Part shown: piece by piece, positions 21,478 through 42,993 of the stretch
Position numbering within the stretch: position 1 is the stretch's first letter
How the letters are laid out: every line of letters starts with the position of its first letter
NCBI RefSeq assembly: GCF_002694385.1
Contig: NZ_NZMB01000023.1
Span: 1-61,496, forward strand
From: Sneathiella sp.
GTDB taxonomy: Bacteria; Pseudomonadota; Alphaproteobacteria; Sneathiellales; Sneathiellaceae
DNA: 61,496 nucleotides
Direction: 5' to 3'
Made by a program: the position numbers and the translations under genes
Notes under the pieces: generated by a model
Seen by the model: only the letters and a program-made list of their open reading frames with translations
What the model was told of the DNA's origin: nothing
The model's database searches: none

Positions 21478-21651
21478 CAAAGTGCCTTTTCCAGTTATTG
21501 CGTATCTTGTGTCATGGCTGCGACATAGATGGGCAGCATGCACCCCCTCAAATGCCGATCAGGCAACGATAGGCGGCAATAAGCGACAGGTCCAGCCCCC
21601 GCGGCATTTCCGCACAACCAGCGGCATCCAGAAAGCGGTTCTTACGCTCCT

Positions 21652-22308: not shown

Positions 22309-22314
22309 TGATCG

Positions 22315-22986: not shown

Positions 22987-23082
22987 AGATCACCATCCCT
23001 GTTCACCTGACAATCAACATGTCGAAGAGCAAGCAGCCGCACCGGAACCGGCAAAAACCTCTCGGCGCGGCTGTTATCTGGA

Positions 23083-23961: not shown

Positions 23962-23996
23962 GCTAACCTCCTAGAGTTTACCGACTGCTGCAGAAT

Positions 23997-24833
23997 TTAA
24001 ATGGCGCGCCCCGCAGCAAGAATTTTCCGCAGGAAAAGCTGTGTTCTCTCTTCCTGGGGAGCGCGAAAAATCTGATCCGGGGGGCCCTGTTCGATGATGC
24101 GTCCGGCATCGAAAAACAGCACACGATCAGCAAAATCATGGGCAAAGCCCATTTCATGCGTCACCAGCAGCATCGTCATATCCGTTTCTGCTGCGAGCTT
24201 GCGCATAACGCCCAGCACTTCTTCCACGATTTCGGGATCAAGTGCGGATGTCACTTCATCAAAAAGCATAATTTTTGGTTGCAGGGCCAGCGCCCGGGCG
24301 ATTGCCACCCGCTGCTTCTGACCGCCGGAAAGTTGCGCAGGCTTGGCCGTTGCCTTATCGGCAAGGCCGACCATGTCCAGCAACTCCATAGCCCGCGCCT
24401 TCGCATCGCTGCGGCTAATACCTTTCGTCAGGATGGGCGCCATGGTGATATTGTCCAGAACCGTCTTGTGAGGGAACAGGTTGAAGAGCTGGAACACCAT
24501 TCCGACTTTTGTCCGCATGCGATGGAGGTGAGCTTCGTTGGCGGGGACGAGTTGGCCTTCCTTTTCCATATGCCAGAGCGGTTCGCCATCTATTCTAATG
24601 ACACCCCCGTCAATCGTCTCCAATGTCATCAATATTCGGAGAATTGTTGTTTTCCCGGACCCACTCGGCCCGATAAGAGCCAGTTTTTCGCCCGGCTGCA
24701 CATCGAAACTCAAATCTTTTAGAACCTGATGGGATCCGAAGCTTTTTGAAATATCCTTGACTTCGATAATTGGTGAGGGCGCCTTCGGCCGCGCCGCATT
24801 CATGCTGTCACCGGTATGGTCATGTTCTTTCAT
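23997..24833 (-). CDS. amino-acid-type ABC transporter ATP-binding protein (EhuA-like)
   Basis: The ATPase subunit (278 residues) has Walker A GPSGSGKTT, signature LSGGQKQRVA, Walker B KIMLFDEVTSALDPE and the H-loop VTHEMGF. It energises the two permeases downstream. It is the first gene of the operon. The start is either the ATG at 24833, without a clear ribosome site, or the ATG at 24803, with GGTGA close by. The promoter region 30-45 bp upstream of 24833 has the first copy of the regulon A operator. Confidence 0.93.
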   Translation of the reverse strand: MKEHDHTGDSMNAARPKAPSPIIEVKDISKSFGSHQVLKDLSFDVQPGEKLALIGPSGSGKTTILRILMTLETIDGGVIRIDGEPLWHMEKEGQLVPANEAHLHRMRTKVGMVFQLFNLFPHKTVLDNITMAPILTKGISRSDAKARAMELLDMVGLADKATAKPAQLSGGQKQRVAIARALALQPKIMLFDEVTSALDPEIVEEVLGVMRKLAAETDMTMLLVTHEMGFAHDFADRVLFFDAGRIIEQGPPDQIFRAPQEERTQLFLRKILAAGRAI

Positions 24834-24860: not shown

Positions 24861-24876
24861 TTAATCAATCATTTAA
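24861..24876. promoter_or_regulatory. regulon A operator, copy 1 (upstream of the ABC importer)
   Basis: TTAATCAATCATTTAA matches the copy in front of the TetR gene at 13 of 16 positions. It lies 28-43 bp before the importer's first gene. Confidence 0.55.
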
Positions 24877-25196: not shown

Positions 25197-25212
25197 TTGA
25201 CCAATCAGTTAA
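25197..25212. promoter_or_regulatory. regulon A operator, copy 2 (upstream of the TetR gene)
   Basis: TTGACCAATCAGTTAA, an imperfect palindrome (TTGAC / GTTAA arms). An extra half-like repeat TTAGTAAATTAG follows. It is 193 bp before the TetR start codon, consistent with autoregulation. Confidence 0.6.
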
Positions 25213-25404: not shown

Positions 25405-26091
25405 ATGGATAAAATAGCAAAATCACAGGTGCAGAAAAAACCGGCAATCCGAGGGAAACGGCCTGCCAGAAAAACCCCCAGCATTCGCAAAGAAGAGCTG
25501 GTGACGATTGCTTTTGACCTGTTTTCGGAAAGGCATGTTGCATCTGTCACCATCAAAGATATTGCCCGCGAAACTGGTGTAAACACGGCGCTTATCTATT
25601 ACTATTTCGAGAATAAGGAAGATTTGTTTGGCGCCGTTATCGAATTCGCAATTAATCGCGCATTTGAAAACTTCCGTAAACTTCATGAACAGCATCTCAG
25701 CCCTCTGGATGATCTCAACGCCTGGATCAATAATAATATCGAGGAGTTTGAATCGATCCGCAAACTGGTTCAGATCAGCCTTGATTATTCCCGTACACAA
25801 AAAAGTATCCCCGCCATCGAGCGATCAATTCGGCAGTTTTATGATGAGGAAGTCCGCATTCTTTCCAACTGCATTCGAAAAGGCATCGCCGAGAAAACTT
25901 TCAAACCCGTAGATGCAGATGAATTCTCCCGCTTTATTTCCACTTACCTTGACGGGCTGATGGTTCATTCGACCATTTTGCCGGAAACGGATCTGGACCG
26001 CTCGGTCAATCAGCTGCGGGCCGTGATCTGGACCATGCTGGGTATTGAAGGCACACCGCCGCAATCGCGACAAGGGTCGGCAACGCCCTAA
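25405..26091 (+). CDS. TetR/AcrR-family regulator, candidate controller of regulon A
   Basis: This 228-residue protein has an N-terminal Lys/Arg-rich extension (RGKRPARKTPSIRKEEL) before a standard TetR helix-turn-helix (VTIKDIARETGVNTALIYYYFENKEDLF, about residues 48-75) and a helical ligand-binding domain. It is transcribed alone between the importer and the dehydrogenase genes. A 16-bp palindrome present in its own promoter recurs in front of the importer and of both divergent enzyme operons, so it is the natural candidate to control all four. The ligand is unknown. Confidence 0.88.
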   Translation: MDKIAKSQVQKKPAIRGKRPARKTPSIRKEELVTIAFDLFSERHVASVTIKDIARETGVNTALIYYYFENKEDLFGAVIEFAINRAFENFRKLHEQHLSPLDDLNAWINNNIEEFESIRKLVQISLDYSRTQKSIPAIERSIRQFYDEEVRILSNCIRKGIAEKTFKPVDADEFSRFISTYLDGLMVHSTILPETDLDRSVNQLRAVIWTMLGIEGTPPQSRQGSATP

Positions 26092-26282: not shown

Positions 26283-27173
26283 TTACAGCTTTTGTCCGAT
26301 TTCGTGACTGGCCAGCAATTCCAGAGCTTTCACCATGGCAGAGTGATCCCAGGCGCTTCCCCCATGTGACGCGCAGGCATTAAATAGCTCCTGACAGGTC
26401 GCCGTGTTGGGAAGGGAAATCCCCATCTGCCGCGCATTCGACAACGCAAGGTTAAGATCTTTCTGATGCAGCTCGATCCGGAAACCCGGATCGAAAGTGC
26501 GGTTGACCATGCGTTCCCCGTGCAGCTCGAGAATACGCGAGCTCGCAAACCCGCCCATCAATGCCTGACGGACCTTGGACGGATCCGCGCCGGCACGGGA
26601 TGCGAAGAGTAATGCCTCCCCCACCGCCTCGATTGTCAGCGCGACGATAATCTGGTTGGCAACCTTGGTTGTCTGGCCATCCCCATTGCCGCCAACAAGA
26701 GTGACATTTTTCCCCATGATGCGAAAGACGGGTTCCACCCTGCTGAAGGCTTTCTCAGGGCCGCCAACCATAATCGTGAGAGTAGCCTCCCGCGCCCCGA
26801 CTTCACCACCAGAGACCGGGGCATCGAGATAGTCGCAGCCCCGATCATTAATGCGGCGCGCGAAATCTTTCGTCGCCATAGGAGATATGGAACTCATATC
26901 AACGACAATTTTGTCTGCCGAAAGGCCGTCCGCCACACCATCTGAACTAAACAGAACTGCTTCCACATGCGGTGTATCGGGCACCATAATGATAATGATA
27001 TCGCTGTTCTCCGCCACCTCGCGGCCAGTGGCACAGCTCATTGCTCCCCCCTCGATCAGGCTTTGCGGAATTTGCGCCCGGTCGTTCAGGTAAAGCTGAT
27101 ACCCGGCTTTCTGAAGATTACCCGCCATGGGCAGCCCCATAATCCCGAGCCCGATAAATCCGATTTTCGCCAT
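26283..27173 (-). CDS. GarR/GlxR-like 3-hydroxyacid dehydrogenase (tartronate semialdehyde reductase or 3-hydroxyisobutyrate dehydrogenase)
   Basis: This is a 296-residue NAD(P)-dependent enzyme of the beta-hydroxyacid dehydrogenase family. It has the N-terminal dinucleotide motif GFIGLGIMGLPMA, substrate motif DAPVSGGEVGA (about residues 117-127), and GGNGDGQTTKVANQI with the catalytic Lys. It is the last gene of an operon with the GS-like, Rieske and D-2-hydroxyacid dehydrogenase genes. If it is a tartronate semialdehyde reductase, its product glycerate could be used by the glycerate kinase at 33979. The neighbourhood favours this over 3-hydroxyisobutyrate, but the sequence does not decide it. 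Confidence 0.87.
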   Translation of the reverse strand: MAKIGFIGLGIMGLPMAGNLQKAGYQLYLNDRAQIPQSLIEGGAMSCATGREVAENSDIIIIMVPDTPHVEAVLFSSDGVADGLSADKIVVDMSSISPMATKDFARRINDRGCDYLDAPVSGGEVGAREATLTIMVGGPEKAFSRVEPVFRIMGKNVTLVGGNGDGQTTKVANQIIVALTIEAVGEALLFASRAGADPSKVRQALMGGFASSRILELHGERMVNRTFDPGFRIELHQKDLNLALSNARQMGISLPNTATCQELFNACASHGGSAWDHSAMVKALELLASHEIGQKL

Positions 27174-27225
27174 TATCTATTCCTCACTGTTCTTTCTGGA
27201 TTATCCTGCCTACCTCTGCCCTGCC

Positions 27226-28236
27226 CTAATAATCGAGATCGGCCTCCACCTTGTTGACCACCGGCTCGCCTGCGAAAATCCGGCGAATGTTGGAAAACAT
27301 CAGATCCAGCGTGTCCGGCATATAAGACTCCGGATCATCCGATGAACAATGTGGTGTAATGATGAGATTGGGCGTATTCCAGAGGGGGGAATCCGAGGGG
27401 AGCGGTTCCTGATCGAAAACATCCAGAACGGCAGAAAGCTCTCTCTTTTCCAATCGCTTCACCAACGCCGCATAGTCAACCAGCTTCGACCGGCTGTAAT
27501 TGACAAGGCCCGCGCCCATTTTCATCGCGTTGATCTCCGCCTCCCCCATAAGATGGCGGGTTGCCTGTGTGGCGGGAGCCGTGACGAGAATATAATCCGC
27601 CTGTGGTACCAGCTTCAGCAAATGATCGGGCGTATACATTTCATCCACGCCATCATGGGGCGCATCAGAGCGCCGTACACCAATCACCCGCATGCCATAT
27701 TTCCGGGCCCAGCGGGCAGCCCCGCCGCCGACACTGCCGACCCCGACAACCAGCAGGGTTTTGCCCATGATCGAGGTGTTGTAAAGCTGCTGCCAGACGG
27801 CCGAGCGCTGGTTCGTCATCATCTCCGGCAGACGGTTATTCAGCATCAGCACCGCCATGAAGCAATATTCCGCCGCCCGATCGCCGTGAACCCCGCGATT
27901 GTTAATAAAAGTCACGCCATCGGGCAGCCAATTTTTAAGCGGGGCAAAAAATTCGATGCCTGCCCCGGTGGCATGAATCCAGCGCAGATTGGGGGCGCGT
28001 TTCGCGATGTCTTTCACATCGAATTTCCACACCAGCAACGCATCCGCCGTTGCAATATGGCTATCGAATTTTTCACTGTCATAATCGACGGTGACATGCA
28101 GACGCTCGGCAACATCGGGAAAGCGTTCCATGGCCGCCTTGAGCCGTTCCGCCGTCACTTCGAAGACTTCGCCAAGACTTCTGTCGTTATCAATATGCAG
28201 ATGAAATTTGCGGTCTTTTGTGAAACTTTCTGTCAT
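27226..28236 (-). CDS. D-2-hydroxyacid dehydrogenase
   Basis: A 336-residue NAD(P)-dependent enzyme. The nucleotide-binding motif GVGSVGGGAARWARKYGM is at about residues 165-182, followed by the catalytic Arg (NYSRSKLVD), Glu (DVFDQEPLP) and His (ITPHCSSDD). Members reduce hydroxypyruvate, glyoxylate or other 2-keto acids. Next to the glycerate kinase gene, hydroxypyruvate reduction to D-glycerate is plausible, but unproven. Third gene of the leftward operon, 53 bp before the GarR-like gene. Confidence 0.9.
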   Translation of the reverse strand: MTESFTKDRKFHLHIDNDRSLGEVFEVTAERLKAAMERFPDVAERLHVTVDYDSEKFDSHIATADALLVWKFDVKDIAKRAPNLRWIHATGAGIEFFAPLKNWLPDGVTFINNRGVHGDRAAEYCFMAVLMLNNRLPEMMTNQRSAVWQQLYNTSIMGKTLLVVGVGSVGGGAARWARKYGMRVIGVRRSDAPHDGVDEMYTPDHLLKLVPQADYILVTAPATQATRHLMGEAEINAMKMGAGLVNYSRSKLVDYAALVKRLEKRELSAVLDVFDQEPLPSDSPLWNTPNLIITPHCSSDDPESYMPDTLDLMFSNIRRIFAGEPVVNKVEADLDY

Positions 28237-28406
28237 CGGCCTTTAACACTCCCGTTGATTATATGTTCGATTTAGCGGCATGTGACGAGCCGAAAGCCGC
28301 CGCATTTGCGATGCCCTCATTTGCCCGAGGACATAAATATGCCCGCGACGCGCCGGGACGACATATTGCCGCCGCGCGCCTTTTTGGTCGCGAACACGGG
28401 AACCTT

Positions 28407-29564
28407 TCAGCTGTGATCCACTTCCTGCGGGAGGATGCGATCCAACCACCACTGCGCCAACTGCGGCACCAACGGCTCCAGATGCGACAGCCTGCCGGAC
28501 GGCGCGAAGGGCGAACACAGACCTTTATGCTGAATTTCCGCAATGTCATTATCCTCGCCAAGCGAGGTATCCCAGCGTTTGTAGTAATATTTAACTTTCT
28601 CATCAAAATCGGGGCGGGCGATTGTCTCCTCGGGGAAGCAGGCGCCAGCAATCACCGTCGTGTGGTGTGGTCCGCGCGGCATAAGCTGGATATACCAGAC
28701 GCAATCAAGGGTCATACCAAGCATGGTTGAGGGGTTGAGTGCCACATAGTTAGTGCCCCCGGCCGCCGCCCCCTGAAGATCCGGAATTTGTGGGAGGGCG
28801 TGCTCCAGATCTCCAGGGAGCAGGGCCCTGGTGTTATCATCATGATTTTCATGAATATAGAACCAATTGCCGATTGTCGGCAGGGCCGAATGCTCCATCT
28901 CCTTCGGGTCCAGCGTTTCCTTGTGAACCGTCGGCAGATGATATTCCTCCATGGCGTTTTCAAAATGCGCCTTCCAGTTACACTTGACCTCATCAACTGT
29001 CTTGCGAACCAAACGCAAATTTTCCATTTTGTAAGAGCCCATCTGCTCCGGAAAATCGCCAAGGTAAGCTGAGAGTGGTTCCGGATCCGCGCTGAAATTG
29101 ATGAAAATGAAACAGCCAAAAATTTCGAGATTAAGGGGAATAAGCCCGTTTTTCTCCTTGTCGAAGCCTTCCGTCCGCTCCATCCCCGGGCAACCGCGGA
29201 GCTTTCCCGTCAGATCATAGGTCCATGAATGATAGGGGCAGGAAAAGACCATCTTGTTACCTTCCCCGAAAGCAACCGGTGCTCCGCGATGACGGCAATT
29301 ATTGGCGAAAGCCCGAACCTGCTGATCCCGCCCCCGCACGATGATGATGGGTACTCCGACATAATCGACAGTGATAAAATCACCCGGCTTTTTCACCTGA
29401 TCCACATGGCCGAAGAAATTCCATGTTTTCATGAAAAGATTTTCGATTTCCGCCTTGTGAAACTCTTCGGATGTATAGCACCAGGCAGGCAGCGTTTCCG
29501 CCTCTTCCACTGGTTTGTACACATTCTGATAATGGGATCTGTCGAAAATATTCAAAGGTTTCAT
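28407..29564 (-). CDS. Rieske-type oxygenase, alpha subunit
   Basis: A 385-residue terminal oxygenase. The Rieske [2Fe-2S] ligands are Cys90/His92 (CRHRG) and Cys109/His112 (CPYHSW). The catalytic domain has the mononuclear iron ligands His209 and His214 (ENAMEEYHLPTVH). The layout fits the group that includes quaternary-amine demethylases (GbcA, CntA) as well as aromatic ring hydroxylases, so the substrate may be an N-alkyl compound rather than an arene. No reductase gene is in the same operon; the VanB-type reductase at 32935 is in the divergent operon, which has the same operator motif. A 170-bp gap separates it from the next gene. Confidence 0.9.
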   Translation of the reverse strand: MKPLNIFDRSHYQNVYKPVEEAETLPAWCYTSEEFHKAEIENLFMKTWNFFGHVDQVKKPGDFITVDYVGVPIIIVRGRDQQVRAFANNCRHRGAPVAFGEGNKMVFSCPYHSWTYDLTGKLRGCPGMERTEGFDKEKNGLIPLNLEIFGCFIFINFSADPEPLSAYLGDFPEQMGSYKMENLRLVRKTVDEVKCNWKAHFENAMEEYHLPTVHKETLDPKEMEHSALPTIGNWFYIHENHDDNTRALLPGDLEHALPQIPDLQGAAAGGTNYVALNPSTMLGMTLDCVWYIQLMPRGPHHTTVIAGACFPEETIARPDFDEKVKYYYKRWDTSLGEDNDIAEIQHKGLCSPFAPSGRLSHLEPLVPQLAQWWLDRILPQEVDHS

Positions 29565-29644
29565 CGTGCCTCGCCTTTTCTATGATTGTGCTCAAATCAA
29601 TCGGTTACCTTTCGGAATACGGCCTCACCATCCGATCCTGCCTG

Positions 29645-31072
29645 TTAGAATTTTGTCAGATAATGCTGAATTTCCCACTCTGAAATCGTGTTGTGATAAC
29701 TCCACCATTCCGATGTCTTGAGCTGAATGTAAGAATTATACAGATCCTCGCCCATGATCTCCCGGCTGATCGGGTCGGCCGCAAATGCCTCAATCGAATG
29801 CAGCAGCGTCCCCGGCAGGGTGCGCACCCCTTTCTCCTTCAACTCGGCCTGACTGAGTTCATACATATTGAGATTGATCGGATCACCCGGATCAAGATCC
29901 TTTTCGATCCCCTCAAGTCCCGCGCCCAGCATCATCGCCGCACCGAGATAGGGGTTGACCGTGGTATCGACTGCGCGACATTCCCAACGGGCGGCAGACA
30001 GATACGGCCCCTTGTGCTTGCTCGGATCCCCCTCGATCTGCGGCCGCAGGGTCGGCACCCGCATCATATGGGTCCGGTTATTCCCGCCGTAGGAAACAAA
30101 AACCGGCGCCCAGGTATAACCGGTTACCGACCCGGACTTGATCAGACGTTTGTAAGAATTGACCGTCGGACAGGTGACCGCAACAATGGCTTCGGCATGT
30201 TTCAACGTGCCTGCAAGAAATTGATAGGCAAGCTTTGACAATCCGCAGCCACGCGGGTCGCCTGCATCCCCAGAGATATTCTTGCCTGTTTTGATATCCG
30301 CCAGCGACATGTTGAAATGCGCGCCACTGCCCGTCTTGTTAGCATAGGGCTTGGGCATAAAGGTGGTTTCCCAGCCATATTTGCGGGCAATTTCCTTCAT
30401 CATCATCCGCCAGAGAACAAACCGATCCGCCGTCGTCATGACATCCGCATAGTTGAAATCAAATTCGAACTGGCCGTTCGCATCCTCATGATCGAAAGAG
30501 TAAACCCCCCAGCCCATCTTGTTCATGTTGCTCACGCATTCATGCAGGAAATCGTAATTTTCAAGGGTCAACTGAACGTCGTAGGCGGCCTTGGCAATGT
30601 CATCCACCACATTGTTCGGCGATATTTCATTGCCATTGCGATTGACGACATAACACTCGCATTCGATACCCAGATTAAACTGAAGGCCAAGCGCCGCCGC
30701 CCGGTCGATCTGCCGCTGCAAAACATTACGCGAACACATGGGCCATGGATCGCCTTTGTATTTCATATAGCCCGGCGCCCAGGCAATTTCAGGTCGCCAG
30801 GGAAGCTGGACAATAGCGCCCGGATCCGGGTAAACCGCCAATTCATCGTCATTCGGCCCCTGCCCCAGCCCTTCAATCGCGGCACCGGTATAAAGCTCTG
30901 ACCCCCGCATCATGCGATCAAAATGGTCAATCGGCACGGCCTTGCCTTTTATGACGCCACTCACATCGACAAAAGATGAAAAGCAGTATTTTACACCCTG
31001 CGCCGCCAGCTGTTCCTGCGTAATACCCCCACGCTCCGGATCGACTGTCATATTTTGCTGTGCAGAAGACAT
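29645..31072 (-). CDS. glutamine synthetase-family ligase (type III/GlnT-like, possible gamma-glutamylamide synthetase)
   Basis: The protein has 475 residues from the ATG at 31072; a TTG at 31102 is in frame but poor. Typical synthetase elements are seen: a beta-grasp N domain (KYCFSSFVDVSGVIKGKAVP), metal ligands in IECECYV and FDHEDANGQFEFDF, the ATP segment GSGAHFNMS, and PTVNSYKRL followed by RVP. This family includes GlnT and enzymes that attach glutamate to an amine (methylamine, isopropylamine, ethanolamine). It heads the leftward operon with a Rieske oxygenase, so a role in activating an amine as its gamma-glutamylamide is a reasonable guess. A glutaminase gene in the divergent operon could remove the glutamyl group. 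Confidence 0.87.
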   Translation of the reverse strand: MSSAQQNMTVDPERGGITQEQLAAQGVKYCFSSFVDVSGVIKGKAVPIDHFDRMMRGSELYTGAAIEGLGQGPNDDELAVYPDPGAIVQLPWRPEIAWAPGYMKYKGDPWPMCSRNVLQRQIDRAAALGLQFNLGIECECYVVNRNGNEISPNNVVDDIAKAAYDVQLTLENYDFLHECVSNMNKMGWGVYSFDHEDANGQFEFDFNYADVMTTADRFVLWRMMMKEIARKYGWETTFMPKPYANKTGSGAHFNMSLADIKTGKNISGDAGDPRGCGLSKLAYQFLAGTLKHAEAIVAVTCPTVNSYKRLIKSGSVTGYTWAPVFVSYGGNNRTHMMRVPTLRPQIEGDPSKHKGPYLSAARWECRAVDTTVNPYLGAAMMLGAGLEGIEKDLDPGDPINLNMYELSQAELKEKGVRTLPGTLLHSIEAFAADPISREIMGEDLYNSYIQLKTSEWWSYHNTISEWEIQHYLTKF

Positions 31073-31160
31073 TGAGGTTACCTTTCCCGCAATCCTGTTC
31101 AAAAAAACACAAATAATGCTGGCGCCCTACCGCGCTGAGCAGGCTTTTACGATAGATAAT

Positions 31161-31176
31161 TTAACTAATTAGTCAA
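31161..31176. promoter_or_regulatory. regulon A operator, copy 3 (upstream of the GS-like operon)
   Basis: TTAACTAATTAGTCAA, which on the minus strand is TTGACTAATTAGTTAA and matches the TetR-promoter copy at 14 of 16 positions. It lies about 90 bp before the ATG at 31072. Confidence 0.6.
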
Positions 31177-31486
31177 TATAATAAATTTGAAAAGCCACAT
31201 CAACCATCAGGCAGTCTGGATTTTCTCCTGCCACGGACCGGCTACCGCCCTACATTGAACGCTCATGAGAAGTGTAAGGTGAGAATACAGCCAATTCTCA
31301 CCATAGGGTATTTATTATTTATATTCATATAGTTATAGTATTAACCTGATAGCACCTACTGTCGAAAATTCACCATAACTGCGACAAATCAACATTTTCC
31401 AGGATAGCCATAACCAATCCGAAGAGTGTGCAAGAAAGCAATCAAAGCTGCCCACTTGCAAAAAAAGCATCTTTCGCATAAATTAA

Positions 31487-31502
31487 TTAACTGAATAATT
31501 AA
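31487..31502. promoter_or_regulatory. regulon A operator, copy 4 (upstream of the DUF1116 operon)
   Basis: TTAACTGAATAATTAA, whose reverse complement matches the TetR-promoter copy at 12 of 16 positions. It ends only 15 bp before the ATG at 31518, overlapping the leader. The rest of the 445-bp divergent gap (31073-31517) contains A+T-rich sequence and no gene. Confidence 0.5.
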
Positions 31503-31517
31503 AATAGGAAATTAAGA

Positions 31518-32777
31518 ATGGCGACTAGCAGCATAAAAAGAGATTCTGCAAATCTTGAAGCCTGGCAGCAAATTTGCCGTGCGGAACCAGTTTTGAAAGA
31601 CATTCGGAATGCTATCGATGTGCTGCCCGGAATGACACCCGATCTGATCCTGACATCCGGCCCGCCGATGAAATGGGAAGACTATGCAGGGGGTCAGCGC
31701 GAAGCTATTATCGGCGGCGCCCAATTTGAAGGTCTAGCCCAGAATCGTGAGACGGCCATCGCCGGACTGGATGCCGGAGACATACGGATTGACGGATGCC
31801 ATGATCATGGCTGTGTCGGCTCGCTGGCCGGAATTTATACAGCGTCTATGCCGGTTCTATTGATTGAGAATGAAACTGCTGGAAATCTCGGTTTTTGCAA
31901 TATGTATGAGGGCACAAACCCTCGACGCCTGAATTACGGGGTCTATGATCAGGGCGTCCATGATCGGTTGACTTACGTCAACACGCGGGTGTCACCAGTG
32001 ATTGCCGAGGCTGTCCGCCTTTCAGGCGGTATCCCCCTCAAGCCGATCATCCGCCGGGCGTTACATATGGGAGATGAGCTGCATAGCCGCAGCACGGCCG
32101 CCGCACTCATCTTCACACGCGAATTGTTTCCTTATCTGATCGAGATTGCAGAAAAGGATAAACAGGCCGTGCATGAAGCCGTCACCGCGCTGACCGAGGA
32201 TCATTATTTCTTTCTGCGCCTGTCCATGGCTGCGGCAAAGGCAACGGCGGATGCGGCGCACCATGTGGAAGGCTCAAGCATGGTGACGGCGATGGCCTTC
32301 AACTGCCGGGGTTTTGCCATCCGGGTAAGCGGACTGGGTGATCAATGGTTTACGGGACCCCACGCCACCGTGGAGGCGCAACTTTTTGACGGCCATACGC
32401 AAGAGGAGATCACCTGGATGGGAGGTGAAAGCACCATTACCGAAACCATCGGCCTTGGCGGCTTTGCACAGGCGGCAGCCTTCCCGCTCCAGCGTTATCA
32501 GGGCGGGTCGGCACAGGCAATGATCGACCGAAATATGGAGCTTTACAACATTACGCTCGGCGAGAACCCAGACTATCAGATTCCGGCTCTCGACTATCGC
32601 GGTTCCCCGACCGGGATTGACATTTTCAAGGTAATTGATACGAAAGTTCTTCCCGCCATGGATATCGGCATCCCCGGCCGGGATGGCGGGCAGATCGGCG
32701 CCGGGATCGTCCGTGCGCCCATGGAATGCTTCACAAAGGCAAGGGAAGCCTATATTCAGAGATATGGAGCCTTCTGA
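31518..32777 (+). CDS. DUF1116 protein, AllG/YlbE-like (carbamoyltransferase subunit family)
   Basis: This is a 419-residue protein closely resembling E. coli YlbE/AllG and YahG. Shared blocks are TSGPPMKWEDYAG, GAQFEGLA, SMPVLLIENETAGN, FAIRVSGLGDQWFTGP, STITETIGLGGFA and GGQIGAGIVRAPMECF. In E. coli AllG is one part of the oxamate carbamoyltransferase (AllFGH) of allantoin catabolism. Here no FdrA/AllF or AllH gene is adjacent, so it is an orphan member and may act on another substrate. It starts the rightward operon with a VanB-type reductase, glycerate kinase and glutaminase. Confidence 0.88.
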   Translation: MATSSIKRDSANLEAWQQICRAEPVLKDIRNAIDVLPGMTPDLILTSGPPMKWEDYAGGQREAIIGGAQFEGLAQNRETAIAGLDAGDIRIDGCHDHGCVGSLAGIYTASMPVLLIENETAGNLGFCNMYEGTNPRRLNYGVYDQGVHDRLTYVNTRVSPVIAEAVRLSGGIPLKPIIRRALHMGDELHSRSTAAALIFTRELFPYLIEIAEKDKQAVHEAVTALTEDHYFFLRLSMAAAKATADAAHHVEGSSMVTAMAFNCRGFAIRVSGLGDQWFTGPHATVEAQLFDGHTQEEITWMGGESTITETIGLGGFAQAAAFPLQRYQGGSAQAMIDRNMELYNITLGENPDYQIPALDYRGSPTGIDIFKVIDTKVLPAMDIGIPGRDGGQIGAGIVRAPMECFTKAREAYIQRYGAF

Positions 32778-32934
32778 TCCTATCAAACAACCATTGCACT
32801 CTTGACCCCATGCAACATAACACGCTGTTACATCAAGTTTCTGATTGGAAATCCCTTTCTTTCGTGGGTGGGAAAATGAGACCCGGCAGCATTACAATCC
32901 TTATAAGTCCAAGCCGAACAGCAGGAATTTCACC

Positions 32935-33897
32935 GTGACAAATTTGATAAAGGTCGTCATCCGCCATAAGAAACGCGAAAGCGATACGATCATGAGTTAC
33001 GAACTGCGGGATGCGGACGAGCGGCCACTACCCGCTTTTACCGCCGGGTCGCATATCGATGTTCATTTGGGGAAAGATCTCATCCGCCAGTATTCCTTGC
33101 TGAACAATCCGGCGGAGACGCACAGATATGTTCTTGGCGTCCTTCGGGAAGAAACCGGCCGAGGCGGATCAAAACATCTGCATGATCATCTTCAGGAGGG
33201 GGATATTTTAACCATCAGTTCCCCGCGCAATGCCTTTTCCCTTGACGAAACGGCCTCAAAAACATTGCTGCTGGCGGGAGGGATCGGAGTTACCCCCCTG
33301 CTCTCCATGGCGGAGCGACTCACTCATATCGGGGCGCAATTTGAAATGCACTACTGCGCCCGCACACGGTCTAATACTGCTTTTCTCGAAATGATGGCCT
33401 CAGCCCCCTATGCGCAAACGGTCAATACCCATTTCGATGACGAAGCGACGGAGCAGCTTCTCAATATTCCGGGGCTTCTCGAGCATTTTGAACCGGGCAT
33501 GCATCTGTATGTCTGCGGTCCGCAAGGCTTTATGGATGCGGTGATCGAAGAAGCGCAAAAAAACTGGCCGGAAGAAGCGATTCACCGCGAATATTTTACC
33601 CCCACTCCCCATCAGGTCAGTGACGGGGACCGGGCTTTTCAGGTAAAAATCGCCAGTACGGGCGAGATTATTGAAGTAGCCGCCGATGAAAGCATTGCCG
33701 CCGCCCTCAAACGCCAGGGCATCCATCTTCCCCTATCCTGCGAACAGGGCATTTGCGGCACCTGCATTACGGCGGTGCTCGGCGGCATTCCCGATCACCG
33801 TGATGATATCCTGAGTGATGAGGAACGGGCTGCAAACGACCTGATCACGCCCTGCTGTTCTCGCTCGAAAAGCGATCTGTTGATACTTGATCTTTAA
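32935..33897 (+). CDS. VanB/PDR-type oxidoreductase (FMN, NAD and [2Fe-2S])
   Basis: This 320-residue protein starts at the GTG at 32935, which has AGGAA upstream; a longer TTG-initiated frame is unlikely. Domain order is FMN-binding (IRQYSLLNNP), NAD-binding (LLLAGGIGVTPLLSMAERL) and a C-terminal plant-type [2Fe-2S] ferredoxin (LSCEQGICGTCITAV ... TPCCSRS) with four Cys ligands. It passes electrons from NADH to a Rieske oxygenase, most likely the one at 28407, which is controlled by the same operator motif. Confidence 0.9.
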   Translation: MTNLIKVVIRHKKRESDTIMSYELRDADERPLPAFTAGSHIDVHLGKDLIRQYSLLNNPAETHRYVLGVLREETGRGGSKHLHDHLQEGDILTISSPRNAFSLDETASKTLLLAGGIGVTPLLSMAERLTHIGAQFEMHYCARTRSNTAFLEMMASAPYAQTVNTHFDDEATEQLLNIPGLLEHFEPGMHLYVCGPQGFMDAVIEEAQKNWPEEAIHREYFTPTPHQVSDGDRAFQVKIASTGEIIEVAADESIAAALKRQGIHLPLSCEQGICGTCITAVLGGIPDHRDDILSDEERAANDLITPCCSRSKSDLLILDL

Positions 33898-33978
33898 GCG
33901 GAAAGATGCATCCGGATTATCCTAGCCCCTCTCCCGCTCCGCTCGACCTTCTCGCTCATAACAGAAAGGCTGAAGGAA

Positions 33979-35247
33979 ATGATGGACATAGACCCCCTAC
34001 AAATCCTGAAAGAATTGTTCGATACAGCGGTGCGGTCGGCGGATCCTATGACACTCATTCCTCCCCTGCTCGGCCCCAAACCGGCAGGACGGCTGTTGGT
34101 GATCGGTGCGGGCAAAGCATCGGCCCGTATGGCAGAGGCAGTGGAAAGCGTCTGGGGCGCCTGTGAAGGTCTTGTCATCACCCGTTATGGTTACGCGCGC
34201 CCCTGCCGCGGCATCGAGATTATCGAAGCCGGCCATCCCATTCCAGATGAAACCGGCGTAACTGCAACACGCCGCCTTCTTGAACTGCTTGAAAGATGCG
34301 GGCCGGAGGATCATGTCCTCACCCTGATATCGGGAGGCGGCTCGGCTCTGCTAGTCTGTCCGGCAGGGGAGATCACTCTCGCTGAAAAACAGCAGATCAC
34401 CAATCAGCTGCTTGCCTCTGGTGTTGCCATCGACAAGATCAATATCGTTCGCAAACATCTGTCCAAGGTCAAAGGCGGGCAGCTCGCCGCGGCGGCATAT
34501 CCCGCCCATATGAGAACGCTGATGATTTCCGACGTGCCGGGCGACAATCCCGCCCACATCGCCTCCGGCCCGACCGTCGGCGATAACAGTACGGCGGCGG
34601 AGGCCCGCGCGATCCTGGACGGGATCAAGGCGAAAATTCCGCCCTCCATCGAGGCTGCCCTTGCCGGATCCTCAGGAGTTCTGGCGCCGGGCGCCGAGGC
34701 CCTTTCCCACACGGAGAACCGAGTCATTGCCTCCCCCGCCCAGTCGTTGGCGGCAGCCATGAAACGCGCGCAAGACTATGGCGTTCAAGTCCGTATCCTT
34801 GGGGATGCTATCGAAGGCGAAGCGCGCGATATCGGAGAGCAGCAGGCGAAACTCGCCCTTGATCTGCAACACAAAATGAAACCGGGGGATGCGCCGCTCC
34901 TGCTGCTTTCCGGTGGGGAATGCACCGTTACGCGGCGCGGCGATGGCGTTGGCGGACCCAATGCGGAATTTCTGTTGTCCGCCTTCATCACCCTGGCAGG
35001 CGCTGAAGGAATCTATGGCCTCGCCTGCGATACGGACGGCGTCGATGGGGCGGCAGAAGTCGCAGGGGCGTTGATCGCTCCTGTCGCATGGCGGCGGGCG
35101 GCGGCAAGGGGATTAGATGTCCACGCCTTCCTTGAGAATAATGACAGCCACAGCTTTTTTGAAAAACTGGAGATGCAGATTATTACCGGTCCCACACTGA
35201 CCAATGTCAATGATTTCAGGGCCTTTCTGATTTATCCTGTTGCTTGA
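33979..35247 (+). CDS. glycerate 2-kinase (GckA/TtuD type)
   Basis: The 422-residue protein has the two family domains: the N-terminal DUF4147 domain (VIGAGKASARMAEAVE, EAGHPIPDETGV, SGGGSALLVCP) and the C-terminal MOFRL domain (LSGGECTVTRRGDGVGGPN, ACDTDGVDGAAEVAGALI). The enzyme phosphorylates D-glycerate to 2-phosphoglycerate, feeding glycolysis; older annotations call it hydroxypyruvate reductase. It could take glycerate from either the GarR-like or the D-2-hydroxyacid dehydrogenase of the divergent operon. Confidence 0.92.
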   Translation: MMDIDPLQILKELFDTAVRSADPMTLIPPLLGPKPAGRLLVIGAGKASARMAEAVESVWGACEGLVITRYGYARPCRGIEIIEAGHPIPDETGVTATRRLLELLERCGPEDHVLTLISGGGSALLVCPAGEITLAEKQQITNQLLASGVAIDKINIVRKHLSKVKGGQLAAAAYPAHMRTLMISDVPGDNPAHIASGPTVGDNSTAAEARAILDGIKAKIPPSIEAALAGSSGVLAPGAEALSHTENRVIASPAQSLAAAMKRAQDYGVQVRILGDAIEGEARDIGEQQAKLALDLQHKMKPGDAPLLLLSGGECTVTRRGDGVGGPNAEFLLSAFITLAGAEGIYGLACDTDGVDGAAEVAGALIAPVAWRRAAARGLDVHAFLENNDSHSFFEKLEMQIITGPTLTNVNDFRAFLIYPVA

Positions 35248-35311
35248 AATACAAACCTTAATCATCTGAAATATCTGCGTTTACATCTTTACTTAATCGG
35301 TGGAGCGAAGC

Positions 35312-36229
35312 ATGAATATCAAACGCCTGCTCGAAAACATCAGCGATATGGCGCGGCAGCATAAGGATCGCGGAAAAGTTGCCGATTATATCCCTGAACT
35401 TGCCCGAATTGACCCTGCACAGTTCGGAATCAGCGTCTGTCTCGCCAATGGGGAGCAGCATTCGGCCGGGGATGCCGCAACGCCCTTCTCCATTCAGAGC
35501 ATTTCGAAGGTATTTTCGCTGGCCCTAGCGCTCGGCCGACTTGGTGACAGCCTGTGGAACCATGTCGGGCGGGAGCCGTCAGGCTATGCGTTCGATTCCA
35601 TCGTTCAGCTTGAGTATGAAAAAGGCATTCCGCGAAATCCCTTCATCAATGCCGGAGCCATTGTTGTGACGGACGCAATTCTAGCAGGCAGCACCCCGGC
35701 GGAAACCCTTGGCGAGTTGCTGCGCTTTATCCGCGTTGCCGCCGATGATGAAGACATTCATATCAATGACCGCGTCGCGCTTTCGGAAAAGGCGACGGGC
35801 GCACGCAATACCGCCCTCGCTCATTTCATGCGATCTTTTGGCAATCTGCGGAACGAAATTGACCTCACGCTTGGCACGTATTTCCATCAATGCGCCATCG
35901 AAATGAACTGCGCACAGCTCGCAAGATCCGGCCGCTTCCTCATGAATGCGGAAGGAAGCATTATTCCTCGGCTGATTTCAAGCGCCCGCATCCGCCGCAT
36001 CAATGCGTTGATGCTGACCTGTGGGCATTATAACGGATCAGGCGATTTTGCCTTCCGGGTTGGGCTCCCCGGAAAAAGCGGCGTCGGCGGCGGCATTCTG
36101 GTAATTGCGCCCATGCGTGCCTCCATCGCGGTCTGGTCGCCGGGCCTTAACAGCTATGGCAATTCCAAACTCGGCACGGAAGCAATGGAAATCTTCGCGC
36201 AAAAAACCGGCTGGTCCGTCTTCGGATAG
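35312..36229 (+). CDS. glutaminase (GlsA type)
   Basis: This is a 305-residue serine-dependent glutaminase. The catalytic Ser-x-x-Lys is in [17 protein letters not shown], and typical segments [11 protein letters not shown] and [11 protein letters not shown] are present. It hydrolyses glutamine to glutamate and ammonia. In this operon it may instead cleave a gamma-glutamyl amide made by the GS-like ligase. The start at 35312 has GGAG 6 bp upstream; an in-frame GTG at 35300 lies before it. It follows the glycerate kinase by 64 bp and ends the rightward operon. Confidence 0.92.
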
Positions 36230-36266: not shown

Positions 36267-37259
36267 TTACAGGCTATAGCTTTCAAGGGCATTTTTTGGA
36301 AACAGTTCTTCCATCGTCACACGCCGCTCTGACAGGCCTTGCCGATGATGGTGATCAAGAAAAGCCTCAATCGTTGTTTCATTGCCTGCAATGCCATAGG
36401 ACCAGAAATTGTTGCCCATAAGCGCCCGCGCCTCGCGCAGATGATCTTCGACAAACGGCATCGTCACCTTGGTTGCGGAAGTATCTGAAAGAAGCTCCTC
36501 CGCCATCGCCTTGGAGGCCGAAAATGCCTTCATCAAAGCGCCCGCAAGGAAGGGATGCGCCTCCAGCAGACTGCGGCGAACCCCCAGGAGATGCATGATC
36601 GGGAATATCCCGGTCTTTTTCCAGTAAGCACTCGCGGTCTTTACCGTATTGCCAAACAGCCGGTCGATATCTGGATGATGATCGTCATAGCATTTCGGGC
36701 TGCGCGGGCCGATAAACCCATCAATCTCCCCACTGATCAATAGATCATTGAGAGATTTGCCTTCCGGCGCCGGAGTAATCATCACATCGCTCGGCAGGTT
36801 GAACGCCAGTTTTTCAGGCCGCCCGGCAGAATTCATCCCTCCGCGCACCCAGTTTATATCAGACGGCTTTACGCCATATTCATCTTCCAGCAGCGCACGC
36901 GCCCAGACATTGGCGCTGAGTTGATATTCTGCGATGCCAATCTTTTTCCCTTTCAGTTTTTCCGGAGAGGTGATTCCCTTATCGGTGCGGATATAGATGG
37001 CGCTGTGCCGGAAAGCACGGGAAAGGAAAATCGGCAACGCCTGATATTGCGAACGGTTTTGCGCGATACTGAGGACCTGACTGGCGAAGGAAACCTCCGA
37101 TATGTCGAAATCCTGATGACGAAAAGCGCGAAAGAACATCTCCTCCGGCGACAAAGCCATAAAAACCGGATCAACGCCGTCTATCTGTAGACGCCCATCG
37201 ATCAGAGGCCGGTTCCTGTCATAGTCACCGACCGCAATTGAAAGTCGTAATTTGCTCAT
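36267..37259 (-). CDS. 4,5-dihydroxyphthalate decarboxylase-like protein (Pht5/OphC family)
   Basis: A 330-residue protein with the type 2 periplasmic-binding-protein-like fold used by the cytoplasmic 4,5-dihydroxyphthalate decarboxylases. Typical segments are LRLSIAVGDYDRNRPLIDGR, GKKIGIAEYQLSANVWARALL and NWVRGGMNSAGRPEK. There is no signal peptide, which argues against an ABC binding protein. The reaction would be 4,5-dihydroxyphthalate to protocatechuate. The other three enzymes of the phthalate 4,5-dioxygenase route lie next to it, so it is probably the last step of that path or of a close analogue. Confidence 0.82.
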   Translation of the reverse strand: MSKLRLSIAVGDYDRNRPLIDGRLQIDGVDPVFMALSPEEMFFRAFRHQDFDISEVSFASQVLSIAQNRSQYQALPIFLSRAFRHSAIYIRTDKGITSPEKLKGKKIGIAEYQLSANVWARALLEDEYGVKPSDINWVRGGMNSAGRPEKLAFNLPSDVMITPAPEGKSLNDLLISGEIDGFIGPRSPKCYDDHHPDIDRLFGNTVKTASAYWKKTGIFPIMHLLGVRRSLLEAHPFLAGALMKAFSASKAMAEELLSDTSATKVTMPFVEDHLREARALMGNNFWSYGIAGNETTIEAFLDHHHRQGLSERRVTMEELFPKNALESYSL

Positions 37260-37274
37260 TCCCTTCTCCCGCCT

Positions 37275-38480
37275 TTACTTATTTTCTATAGGGTAACCCG
37301 GCACGGCGACCTGTTCTTTCAGTGGTTGCCAATTTCCGCCTTGCGCACTTTTCAGAATTGCGTGGCAGACCTCCAACGTCGCATGGCCCCAGCGGGCATT
37401 CTGGACGGGGAGATGGTTTTCCCGCACCATCTGCCAAATCGCGTCCATGACATGTCTGCGACCGGCAGCGAGCGGCTCAACGGGAAGTGTTGTCACGGCC
37501 TCATCCCCATATATCCGGATTTTTTCAGGGCCGATGCGAATGTCCGCATGATCAAGACTGAGCATAAGCTCGCCAAAATGCTCATTTCCATCGGGATCGC
37601 GTGGCAGTTCGCCAAGGCCAAAGCCCCGCATGGCTTTCAGGGCGGTCTCTTCCTCCGGATTTTTCACCGTTCGCAGTTTTCGCCGGGCTGCACCATACTC
37701 CGACGGATCCTTGCGCTGCCCCAACTCGCCCATCCAGCCCGCGCTCTCATCCCCATCATAATGCGCATAGCCGGAATAAGTCAGGTTCGCGGTGACGCCA
37801 TTTTCAAATTCCAGCAGCGCCATATAGGCCCCTTCTGACGGACGGGCCTTATCCCAGTTACCCGTCAGCGCCGTAACCCGCCGCGTCTTTCCCCCCGCAA
37901 GCAGACGGACAATGTCGATATGATGGACGGCCTGACTGAAAATAACGCCGCCACCGGTTTTCGTCGTCAACTCCTCCGCCCGCCGGGGACGATACATGAA
38001 ATCGGTGTCATAGTTCGCCCGGATCATACGCAGAGCGCCATATTTTCCGGACTTGATAATCTCCAGCGCCATGGCGATTTGCGGATCGAAACTATGGCTA
38101 GGCCCGACGGCGACATGGCGATTGTTATGGTCCGCCGCATTGATGATTGCGCGGCTGTCATCAAGCGAGAGTGCTACCGGTTTTTCGATGAGCACATGCC
38201 GCCCGGCCGCAAGGGCCGCAAGGGCATGCTCCCTATGTAATTGATGCGGACTTGCGACATACACCAACTCAACCGCCGAATTGTTCAGCATTTCGGAGAG
38301 AGTTTCATAAGCCGGTGCAGAAAACCGGGATGCGAATTCTTCCCGCGCCTCAACGCGCGGATCCACCGCTCCCGCCAACCGGATCCGTTTATCGGCAAGA
38401 ATTGAGGGAAGGGTCAACATAAAGGCTCGACCAAGGCCAACGACACCAAGGCCAAGCGCGGCGATCGCATTCGTCGACAT
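37275..38480 (-). CDS. Gfo/Idh/MocA-family dehydrogenase (Pht4/OphB-like)
   Basis: A 401-residue NAD(P)-dependent dehydrogenase with Rossmann motif GLGVVGLGRAFM, the EKP motif (HVLIEKPVALSLDD) and the central motif with Lys/His (FSQAVHHIDIVRLLAGG). In phthalate degradation Pht4, a member of this family, oxidises the cis-4,5-dihydrodiol to 4,5-dihydroxyphthalate. The position between the decarboxylase and the reductase supports that. I start at the ATG at 38480, one base after the reductase stop codon; a longer frame overlaps the reductase. Confidence 0.83.
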   Translation of the reverse strand: MSTNAIAALGLGVVGLGRAFMLTLPSILADKRIRLAGAVDPRVEAREEFASRFSAPAYETLSEMLNNSAVELVYVASPHQLHREHALAALAAGRHVLIEKPVALSLDDSRAIINAADHNNRHVAVGPSHSFDPQIAMALEIIKSGKYGALRMIRANYDTDFMYRPRRAEELTTKTGGGVIFSQAVHHIDIVRLLAGGKTRRVTALTGNWDKARPSEGAYMALLEFENGVTANLTYSGYAHYDGDESAGWMGELGQRKDPSEYGAARRKLRTVKNPEEETALKAMRGFGLGELPRDPDGNEHFGELMLSLDHADIRIGPEKIRIYGDEAVTTLPVEPLAAGRRHVMDAIWQMVRENHLPVQNARWGHATLEVCHAILKSAQGGNWQPLKEQVAVPGYPIENK

Positions 38481-38481
38481 C

Positions 38482-39435
38482 TCAGAGGTCAATCGTGATC
38501 TCCTCGTCTGCCGCGCGTGAGACACAAATCATAATGAACCTGTCCCTCTCCTTGTCACTCAACACCAGATCCCGATGCTCCACATCCCCGTCTAGCAGGA
38601 CCGTTTTACAGGCGCCGCAGGTGCCGCTCTCACAGGAGGAGCGTAAATCATACCCCCGTTCACGCAGAGTTTCGAGAATGGTCTGGTTTTTCGGAACCGT
38701 GATCCGCGCACCGGATTTTTTTAACAAGACGGTGAACTCCCTGTCATCGGCCTGGCTCACCTCGACCGGCTTGAAATCCTCGAAATGAATCTGCTGCTCC
38801 GGCCAATGCCCGGACATGTCCCGGACATCTTCCATCATCATCTTCGGGCCACAACAATAGACATGCGCCGCCGTCGGCTGCTCAAGATGCGGCCAGAGAT
38901 CATAAAGATGCGCGGGATCGCCCCCATCATGGTGCAGGATGACATTGGCGGCAAAATCGGCGGTCTCCAACTCGTCAGCGAAAACCGTATTTTCCCGCGA
39001 CTGGGTGCAGTAGATGACCCGGAAATTCTGATGCCCGTCTGCGGCCAGCTTGTGACACATGGACAGGATCGGCGTAATGCCAATACCTCCGGCAATGAAG
39101 AGATATTCATTGGCAGGGACCAGTTCGAAATTATTTTCAGGCGGCAGGATTTTCAAAATATCGCCCGCCTGAGTTTTCTCCACCATGCTCCGCGATGCGC
39201 CCCGCCCCACCCTGTCCGCACGAACGGCGATGAGATAGCGATCCCTCTCCAACGGGCTGTTGGCAAGAGAATATTGCCGCATACTACCCTCAGGTGTCCT
39301 TACACCGATGTGCGAACCTGCGGAAAAGGTCGGCAACTCACTTCCATCAACGGGCTTCAATTCCAGAATACCATGATCAGGCCCGACAAGCCGTTTGTCC
39401 GTAATGACAACTTTTATAAATTCACTTTCCATCAT
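38482..39435 (-). CDS. phthalate dioxygenase reductase-like oxidoreductase (Pht2/OphA1-like)
   Basis: A 317-residue protein with FMN (MRQYSLANSP), NAD (YLFIAGGIGITPILSM) and C-terminal [2Fe-2S] domains (RSSCESGTCGACKTV ... ICVSRA). This is the one-component reductase that feeds class IA Rieske oxygenases such as phthalate 4,5-dioxygenase. It is divergent from the oxygenase gene at 39565, with two operator-like palindromes between them. Distinct in sequence from the regulon A reductase at 32935. Confidence 0.9.
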   Translation of the reverse strand: MMESEFIKVVITDKRLVGPDHGILELKPVDGSELPTFSAGSHIGVRTPEGSMRQYSLANSPLERDRYLIAVRADRVGRGASRSMVEKTQAGDILKILPPENNFELVPANEYLFIAGGIGITPILSMCHKLAADGHQNFRVIYCTQSRENTVFADELETADFAANVILHHDGGDPAHLYDLWPHLEQPTAAHVYCCGPKMMMEDVRDMSGHWPEQQIHFEDFKPVEVSQADDREFTVLLKKSGARITVPKNQTILETLRERGYDLRSSCESGTCGACKTVLLDGDVEHRDLVLSDKERDRFIMICVSRAADEEITIDL

Positions 39436-39467
39436 ATTTCCGGATACTCAGTGCTTTTAAAAATTAT

Positions 39468-39481
39468 ATTAGATATCTAAT
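39468..39481. promoter_or_regulatory. regulon B operator, copy 1 (reductase promoter)
   Basis: ATTAGATATCTAAT, a perfect 14-bp palindrome, 33 bp upstream of the reductase start codon and 84 bp before the oxygenase ATG. Confidence 0.65.
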
Positions 39482-39534
39482 TTTATTTTTGCAAGGGCTA
39501 GACAAACCCGCAGTTTCGATTCTACATTGTTTTC

Positions 39535-39546
39535 TTAGATGTCTAA
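39535..39546. promoter_or_regulatory. regulon B operator, copy 2 (oxygenase promoter)
   Basis: TTAGATGTCTAA, 11 of 12 identical to TTAGATATCTAA, 18 bp before the oxygenase ATG and overlapping its leader. Confidence 0.6.
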
Positions 39547-39564
39547 ATTATTTTGGAGGCTCCA

Positions 39565-40869: not shown

Positions 40870-40899
40870 GTTCTCTTGCGGGAAATATCTCTTGTCGCC

Positions 40900-42990: not shown

Positions 42991-42993
42991 CTG

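Follow-up and report, generated by a model that had tools for sequence, protein, structure and literature searches.

A predicted glutamate-tagging regulon for amine degradation in Sneathiella sp. that joins a glutamine synthetase-like ligase, a Rieske oxygenase and a distinct clade of AllG/DUF1116 proteins

Methylamine and isopropylamine are coupled to glutamate before they are oxidized, and the same kind of tagging has been described, in accounts available in part, for polyamines and ethanolamine. Tagging before oxidation is also known for aromatic amines. In the aniline and 1-naphthylamine dioxygenase systems (AtdA and NpaA), which provide a precedent for tagging before Rieske attack, a glutamine synthetase (GS)-like ligase attaches glutamate to the amine ahead of a Rieske oxygenase and its reductase, as set out in the available portion of PMC11335346. 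These systems have aromatic substrates, a two-component dioxygenase and a GAT-like hydrolase. We analyzed a 61,496-bp stretch of DNA from Sneathiella sp. (contig NZ_NZMB01000023.1, hereafter the window), in which two divergent operons encode a GS-like ligase and a Rieske oxygenase with a reductase, but the oxygenase is of the CntA/GbcA type without a neighboring beta-subunit gene, and the partners are glutaminase A, glycerate enzymes and a member of the AllG/DUF1116 family. We propose, with about even confidence, that these genes form an inducible regulon through which a small primary amine, probably an amino-acid-like one, is taken up and degraded after tagging with glutamate. The AllG protein belongs to a GS-linked, AllF-free clade, which is an unexpected and new result. 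If the proposal is true, a CntA/GbcA-type Rieske enzyme and a glutaminase would accomplish an oxygen-dependent deamination of aliphatic or amino-acid-like amines with the tag recycled as glutamine. The AllG result has the wider reach, as the function of AllG itself becomes testable.

Eight open reading frames (ORFs), lying where the ORF list had placed them, were assigned to families with Pfam and NCBIfam models. The minus-strand operon (26283-31102) contains, in order, the GS-like ligase (29645-31102), the Rieske non-heme iron monooxygenase alpha subunit (28407-29564), a D-2-hydroxyacid dehydrogenase (2HADH; 27226-28236; PF02826, and 161 bits to PDB 3hg7) and a GlxR-like tartronate semialdehyde (2-hydroxy-3-oxopropionate) reductase (26283-27173). 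The plus-strand operon (31518-36229) contains AllG (31518-32777), a FAD/NAD(P)H/[2Fe-2S] reductase (32845-33897; PF00111, PF00175 and PF00970), a glycerate 2-kinase-like protein of the GckA/MOFRL type (33979-35247) and glutaminase A (GlsA; 35300-36229). The intra-operon spacers measure 52-170 bp, and the two operons are separated by a gap of 415 bp. The presence of the GS-like, Rieske, DUF1116, kinase and glutaminase genes, as reported in a first-pass annotation of the window, was confirmed, and no description of the full combination was found in the open-access literature. The "Rieske pair" of that annotation does have two components; they are an oxygenase and a likely reductase rather than an alpha and a beta subunit.

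The regulon likely extends to two neighboring units. A TetR-family regulator gene (25405-26091, plus strand; Pfam TetR_N, 50 bits), likely a local repressor, is followed at lower coordinates by a polar-amino-acid-type ATP-binding cassette (ABC) importer (21652-24833, minus strand), composed of two permeases (21652-22308 and 22315-22986), an SBP_bac_3 binding protein (23083-23961) and an ATPase (23997-24833); Pfam identified all of these except the second permease, which was recognized by eye. Candidate operators, described by the palindrome TTGACYAATYAGTTAA, precede all of these units. Exact copies lie before the TetR gene (TTGACCAATCAGTTAA, 25197-25212) and before the ligase operon (TTGACTAATTAGTTAA on the minus strand, 31161-31176), and weak sites lie before the importer operon (24861-24876, three mismatches to TTGACYAATYAGTTAA) and before AllG (31487-31502, three mismatches); these two exact and two weak sites are the only places in the window with three mismatches or fewer. 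The count alone (five matches on both strands against 0.94 expected, with five or more reached in 3 of 100 shuffles) is modest because the pattern was derived from two of the counted sites and the spacers are AT-rich; it is the placement that makes the argument. Since palindromes resembling one TetR operator stand before both operons, the importer and the TetR gene, these likely constitute one regulon, presumably repressed by the TetR protein of the window. This agrees with the earlier claims of a single regulon and of a link to an importer, the latter through likely co-regulation with an amino-acid-type ABC system. Among related loci (numbered with the prefix L), L143, which has the highest-scoring TetR relative, carries similar sites before AllG, the ligase and a CMD-family gene (five matches at three places, 0.24 expected, none of 200 shuffles reaching this), and in L059 a site lies between the TetR and AllG genes (three overlapping matches, 0.06 expected, none of 200 shuffles). 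A TetR relative (156-256 bits) adjoins AllG in L051, L059 and L143. The window also has a CMD-family gene (20965-21543), on the importer's strand and directly after the importer.

The ligase matches TIGR03105 with 530 bits (curated cut-off 470), which places it in the type III GS/GMAS family, and among solved structures it is nearest to those of glutamate-methylamine ligases (9qur, 318 bits; 7cql, 302 bits). The 510-residue GS entry 8wwu, which we take to be the naphthylamine ligase NpaA1, is distant (110 bits). The listed TTG start may lie upstream of the true start. We compared the ligase with a second GS gene, GlnA-like, that is located elsewhere in the same genome. In the window ligase and all six aligned relatives, the Asp of the GlnA motif DGSS is replaced by Thr and the Glu of the GFEAP flap is lost to a TWAP loop (YTGAAIEG versus FDGSSITG, and GYTWAP versus GFEAP), whereas other active-site stretches (RNR/NNR and E.R..D) are kept. 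The replaced Asp and flap Glu are presumably ammonium-site residues, and the kept stretches presumably belong to the glutamate site. Because the ammonium-site residues have been lost relative to the organism's own GlnA, ammonia is an unlikely substrate and the ligase probably acts on an organic amine, in line with the amine activation first proposed. That TIGR03105 and GMAS are the nearest models would also be expected if the ligase were GMAS itself or an ammonia-dependent GS, serving the methylamine/N-methylglutamate pathway or plain glutamine synthesis. We consider this distinctly improbable, given the altered ammonium site, the separate GlnA-like gene, and the fact that the assigned genes of both operons include a Rieske oxygenase but no N-methylglutamate synthase or dehydrogenase; three-carbon (C3) reductases and a glycerate kinase would make no sense for methylamine.

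The Rieske oxygenase (PF00355 and PF00848) is closest to carnitine monooxygenase (CntA, 6y8j, 135 bits), and its best NCBIfam model is glycine betaine monooxygenase, at 149 bits and so far under the cut-off of 670. The CRH...CPYH ligands and the EEYHLPTVH and GEDND motifs are present, and the 2-His-1-Asp triad is complete. A Glu of the window enzyme aligns with E205 of CntA, the bridging residue according to the available part of PMC10952381. Unlike CntA/GbcA, the window enzyme has no Cys-X-X-Cys pair by the iron site, with EEYHL where others have ECYHC, and its genes are associated with 2HADH and, in some loci, with a GS-like ligase; the Cys pair occurs in only some group V Rieske monooxygenases, as far as the same available part describes (PMC10952381). 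Its nearest families and the aligned Glu support an enzyme of the N-C-cleaving kind, and Rieske oxidation as a step of the pathway is accordingly upheld. The presumed electron donor is the reductase encoded 67 bp after AllG on the same strand.

The logic of GS-like ligase, Rieske oxygenase and reductase is that of the aniline/naphthylamine dioxygenases, in the available portion of PMC11335346, and a similar system for an aromatic amine has to be weighed. All genes of both operons have been assigned, leaving no room for a beta-subunit or a GAT-like gene: neither operon holds a Rieske beta-subunit gene (the rest of the genome was not searched for one), and neither holds a GAT-like gamma-glutamyl-amide hydrolase, glutaminase A being found instead (the rest of the genome was again not searched). 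Moreover, the nearest families of the ligase and oxygenase are GMAS and CntA/GbcA, with the aromatic systems farther away, and no ring-cleavage gene was recognized in the regulon, although a phthalate-type operon that has a Rieske gene and a reductase of its own adjoins it. On subunits and nearest families we rejected this candidate, which we hold to be highly improbable.

Relatives of the Rieske oxygenase were collected from a sample of 385 genomes of the class, of which 25, including the Sneathiella genome, had a match. Neighbors were counted in 44 distinct loci: 23 of the 24 other genomes with a match contributed 40 stretches, and four named contigs were added. Of the 57 Rieske places besides that of the window, 45 fall inside the counted stretches; the other 12, which score 403.7 bits at best and include both of genome G086, lie outside them. 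A 2HADH gene lies within 300 bp of the Rieske gene in 15 of the 44 loci and anywhere in the stretch in 19, and the 12 best-scoring of the 44 all have one within 380 bp. A GS-like ligase above 300 bits was found in eight loci and AllG above 300 bits in five. The steady 2HADH neighbor suggests that the oxygenase yields a 2-oxoacid. L044, a named contig outside the sample, carries Rieske, 2HADH and ligase genes, with no AllG in 15 kb and the contig ending 1.3 kb past the ligase. In two loci of one family, L068 (11532-14910) and L075 (kinase from 7844, Rieske from 9117), a glycerate kinase of the same type adjoins the Rieske gene, and in L068 a pyruvate kinase-like gene, recognized by eye, comes next.

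The AllG protein has a described relative in the E. coli oxamate carbamoyltransferase AllFGH (FdrA-YlbE-YlbF), in which, according to the available part of PMC11326118, AllG requires AllF and AllH for oxamate formation. The window protein (PF06545, 255 bits; cut-off 27) is of the same Pfam family and has its invariant residues, but it falls in a separate clade, lacks AllF and AllH, and has a GS-like ligase as its neighbor. In a tree of 27 AllG proteins, for which the program warned of long branches, it lies within a nine-row group with 100/100 support and a long branch (2.19), apart from the FdrA-linked proteins. L135 and L143-L146, found after the tree had been planned, were assigned to the clade from their scores of 563-708 bits, the 18 AllG loci outside it having 222-330 bits, which gives 14 clade loci (the window, L048, L049, L050, L051, L059, L111, L112, L115, L135, L143, L144, L145 and L146). 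A GS-like gene is located no more than 2.1 kb from AllG in 12 of the 14, three similar Rhodococcus plasmids with different types of ligase and oxidase among them, and FdrA (AllF) is beside AllG in none. In the other AllG loci, several of which are close kin, the picture is reversed: FdrA lies within 260 bp in 17 of 18, and a GS-like gene above 60 bits in none. The two clade loci without a GS neighbor are L048 and L145. In L048 only 1.7 kb of sequence was available upstream of AllG; in L145 about 9 kb on either side showed no GS-like gene, but the genome has a ligase on another contig.

The association also holds across genomes. This AllG type occurs at E 1e-100 or better in 9 of the 385 genomes, all of them among the 17 with the ligase at E 1e-110 or better. 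The ligases of at least 702 bits in this sample (eight, including that of the window) all have this AllG type within 1.4 kb, while among the ten weaker ligases (399-534 bits) AllG is beside one (G101:C73), G389 has it on another contig, and the genomes of the remaining eight show no AllG of this type. The core grouping of ligase and AllG is beyond chance. The GS-AllG pairing was not described in the open-access literature searched, and no open-access literature was found on DUF1116 with a Rieske enzyme. Duplicates were left out of these analyses (L042, L043 and L047, equal to L049, L051 and L065), and L096-L110 are short versions of L120-L134 (L106 being L131), the tree using the short and the neighbor counts the long ones; L048 and L106 are tree rows with neither an FdrA nor a GS-like neighbor. 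The tree also does not include the divergent AllG-like genes of L082 and L091-L093, which score 50-79 bits. In L091-L093, from the genus of the window, they are long open frames of 575 aa that reach 72-79 bits, lie close to genes for ABC transporters and represent a further divergent branch.

Residues E71, E131, D186, H189, R191, K241, S305, E309, T310 and D368 are invariant over 21 rows from both AllG clades. Because they are common to both, the GS-linked clade probably keeps the family chemistry, the making or breaking of an N-acyl bond. A structure model built from the 21 rows (pLDDT 89.4) had a good match only to 3clq (Z 56), which has no characterised function, and the VIA rows after it reach Z 3.1 at most, so that the fold gave no indication of function; a model from only six rows, with a pLDDT of 55, was too poor for use. 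The kept residues, the need for AllG in the E. coli enzyme (in the available part of PMC11326118) and the presence of two DUF1989 genes near AllG in L048 would all suit a ureido or carbamoyl pathway, in which AllG splits an N-carbamoyl compound and the remaining enzymes handle the freed amine and a glyoxylate-type fragment. We regard this reading as improbable. In the genome of the window, which is 98% complete, no FdrA-like gene was found, the only PF00549 matches being two adjacent SucCD-like frames (392 and 305 aa), none of them on the window's contig; AllH (PF11392) had no match in that genome, with a positive E. coli control; and glyoxylate carboligase (Gcl) did not reach its cut-off. FdrA adjoins none of the 14 AllG genes of the clade as against 17 of 18 others, and no carbamate kinase was recognized by eye among the cluster genes. 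The first-pass annotation had compared the genes with the E. coli allantoin/glyoxylate regulon; kinship to the allantoin/oxamate branch was not borne out, as the AllG is of another clade, its partners are missing and no Gcl reaches the cut-off.

Because the clade lacks an AllF neighbor and travels with GS-like ligases, the Pfam name, oxamate carbamoyltransferase subunit AllG, is probably wrong for it. A tentative and, in our estimate, somewhat unlikely extension is that the clade exchanged AllF, with carbamoyl phosphate, for GS-type ligases, with gamma-glutamyl phosphate. The result would be a two-protein system of Alphaproteobacteria and Rhodococcus plasmids that adds glutamate to, or removes it from, hard-to-degrade amines upstream of C-N-cutting Rieske or flavin oxygenases. 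The three near-copy Rhodococcus plasmids carry AllG of the same clade (60% identity), two GS-like ligases and glutaminase A, along with SDRs and genes resembling a peptidase C26/GGABA hydrolase, an FMO-type oxidase and an esterase; in the third record, which is without annotation, AllG, GS and GlsA alone were matched. In them AllG and GS are connected, independently of the window, with the hydrolysis of glutamine or gamma-glutamyl compounds, and an open-access search aimed at this cluster returned no account of it, only work on ammonia removal by Gordonia. L144 has an asparaginase/glutaminase-type gene near the GS-AllG pair. The closest relative locus is L143 (73% identity for AllG and 78% for GS), whose genome carries a Rieske relative (61% over 288 residues) on another contig.

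Other loci show related arrangements. In one family, AllG and 2HADH are separated by two genes for 2-oxoglutarate oxygenases of the PhyH type (L049, L050 and L135, and partly L051; Pfam for one in L049, the others by eye). In L049 a gamma-glutamyltranspeptidase is also encoded, at 5.6 kb from the ligase gene. In L048 and L052, Rieske gene pairs occur with two DUF1989 genes (confirmed by Pfam in L048, by eye in L052), 2HADH and an amino-acid ABC transporter, with no GS-like gene in the stretch; this is perhaps a sister module with another substrate. The DUF1989 genes of L048 prompted the idea of a guanidine/urea-carboxylase reading; no DUF1989-like gene was recognized in the window.

The glycerate branch of E. 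coli glyoxylate and allantoin metabolism consists of Gcl, GlxR and GlxK. The window resembles it in having a GlxR-like reductase and a glycerate kinase, but the kinase is of the MOFRL type and there is no Gcl over cut-off. The reductase scores 461 bits with PRK15059 (NF011633; cut-off 451) and 417 with TIGR01505 (cut-off 341), and falls under the cut-off of PRK11559 (318 versus 397); its best PDB chain is 1yb4 (430 bits). We take PRK15059 to represent GlxR and PRK11559 GarR, and the enzyme first called "GarR-like" is indeed a tartronate semialdehyde reductase by these models, better described as GlxR-like. The kinase exceeds the Pfam cut-offs for MOFRL/DUF4147 (PF05161 and PF13660), the NCBIfam glycerate 2-kinase models matching below theirs, and is the sole MOFRL match in its genome. 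Enzymes for a carbon route toward 2-phosphoglycerate are thus present, as had been suggested. The best glyoxylate carboligase match in the genome has 335 bits (cut-off 711), on which ground we rejected glyoxylate carboligation as the origin of tartronate semialdehyde; this compound would need another source, and a reductase without its usual supplier favors a direct C3 product. Our guess at this product is hydroxypyruvate if the amine is serine-like and tartronate semialdehyde if it resembles isoserine. At the other end of the route, glutaminase A (NF002133, 451 bits; cut-off 368) is the sole PF04960 match in the genome. Its presence had been explained by the stripping of glutamate from the product; the recycling of glutamine formed by oxidative N-dealkylation would seem the better explanation.

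It has to be considered whether these carbon and glutamine ends belong to the amine pathway at all, or whether a GS-AllG-Rieske-2HADH amine module merely stands side by side with an independent GlxR/GckA/GlsA set, with no single route from an amine to 2-phosphoglycerate. In the other clade loci from Alphaproteobacteria, the surroundings of AllG yielded no GlxR, GckA or GlsA, and GlsA and GckA, as the only members of their families in the genome, could serve general metabolism. Against such a division, the three genes lie inside the same two operons, with spacers of 52-81 bp to their operon neighbors and behind common operator-like sites; GckA is found 109-118 bp from the Rieske gene in 2 of the 44 other loci; and in Roseovarius a GlxR-like gene lies near 2HADH (53% identity) on a plasmid, in an 8-kb span that also holds RidA and a distant Rieske gene (34% identity). 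We find the two-module explanation rather unlikely. On that plasmid, of Roseovarius pelagicus (L113, 9319-17254), the Rieske, RidA, phosphotriesterase-family, 2HADH and GlxR-like genes adjoin an ectoine-type ehu cluster.

In the single glutamate-tagging pathway that we favor, the ABC importer would bring the compound into the cell, with the TetR repressor governing importer and enzymes, and the GS-like ligase would use ATP to couple the amine to the gamma-carboxyl group of glutamate. The Rieske monooxygenase and its reductase would then hydroxylate the carbon adjoining the amide nitrogen, and the resulting carbinolamide would collapse to a 2-oxoacid (or aldehyde) and L-glutamine. Glutaminase would convert glutamine to glutamate and ammonia, recycling the tag, while 2HADH and the GlxR-like reductase would take the carbonyl compound (probably hydroxypyruvate or tartronate semialdehyde) to D-glycerate, from which the kinase would form 2-phosphoglycerate. 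AllG may join the ligase in acting on the N-acyl bond of the gamma-glutamyl compound, either transferring or releasing the acyl group, and would do so without AllF or AllH; its role is the least certain part. What the sequences show directly is the protein families, the replacement of ammonium-site residues, the conserved metal motifs of the Rieske enzyme, the operator-like sites, the linkage of GS with AllG and of Rieske genes with 2HADH, and the separation of the AllG clade. Repression by this TetR protein, the substrate, the role of AllG and the reactions from ligation onward are predicted from them.

Several observations weigh against this pathway. The reductase, GlsA and GlxR were found in none of the 44 Rieske loci, so that elsewhere another gene must supply the electrons. 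The stretches around AllG in the 13 other clade loci yielded no GlxR, GckA or reductase above 60 bits, GlsA occurred there only in the three similar Rhodococcus loci, and this arrangement of the glycerate genes was observed in the window alone; the genes for the carbon and glutamine ends may accordingly have been added locally or have no connection with the pathway. Release of glutamine would be unnecessary if AllG or another protein frees glutamate. The 20 kb examined in L143 contain neither a Rieske nor a 2HADH gene. The Rhodococcus ligases are of another GS subfamily (95-105 bits to the window ligase), and no Rieske relative was found in the Rhodococcus stretch, where the oxidase is FMO-like. 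A single family accounts for four of the 14 AllG loci, and the three Rhodococcus loci are near-copies. Finally, 3 of 100 window shuffles equaled the operator count, for a pattern taken from two window sites, and a search of L049, L050, L051, L146 and L045 with the operator pattern gave no match.

The surroundings of the regulon contain further catabolic genes. On its other side it adjoins a separate phthalate-type operon (36267-44639), with a Rieske gene (39553-40869; 558 bits to PDB 7fjl), a TRAP transporter beside it, and a reductase, a Gfo/Idh-type dehydrogenase and a decarboxylase-like protein, these three assigned by eye or from weak matches. A second TRAP set was recognized by eye at about 50367-53343. 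Before the catabolic island, Mu-like transposase, MuB-like ATPase and phage head-like genes were recognized by eye at 13316-16344 and about 17651-19932, which suggests a Mu-like prophage or remnant just ahead of the island.

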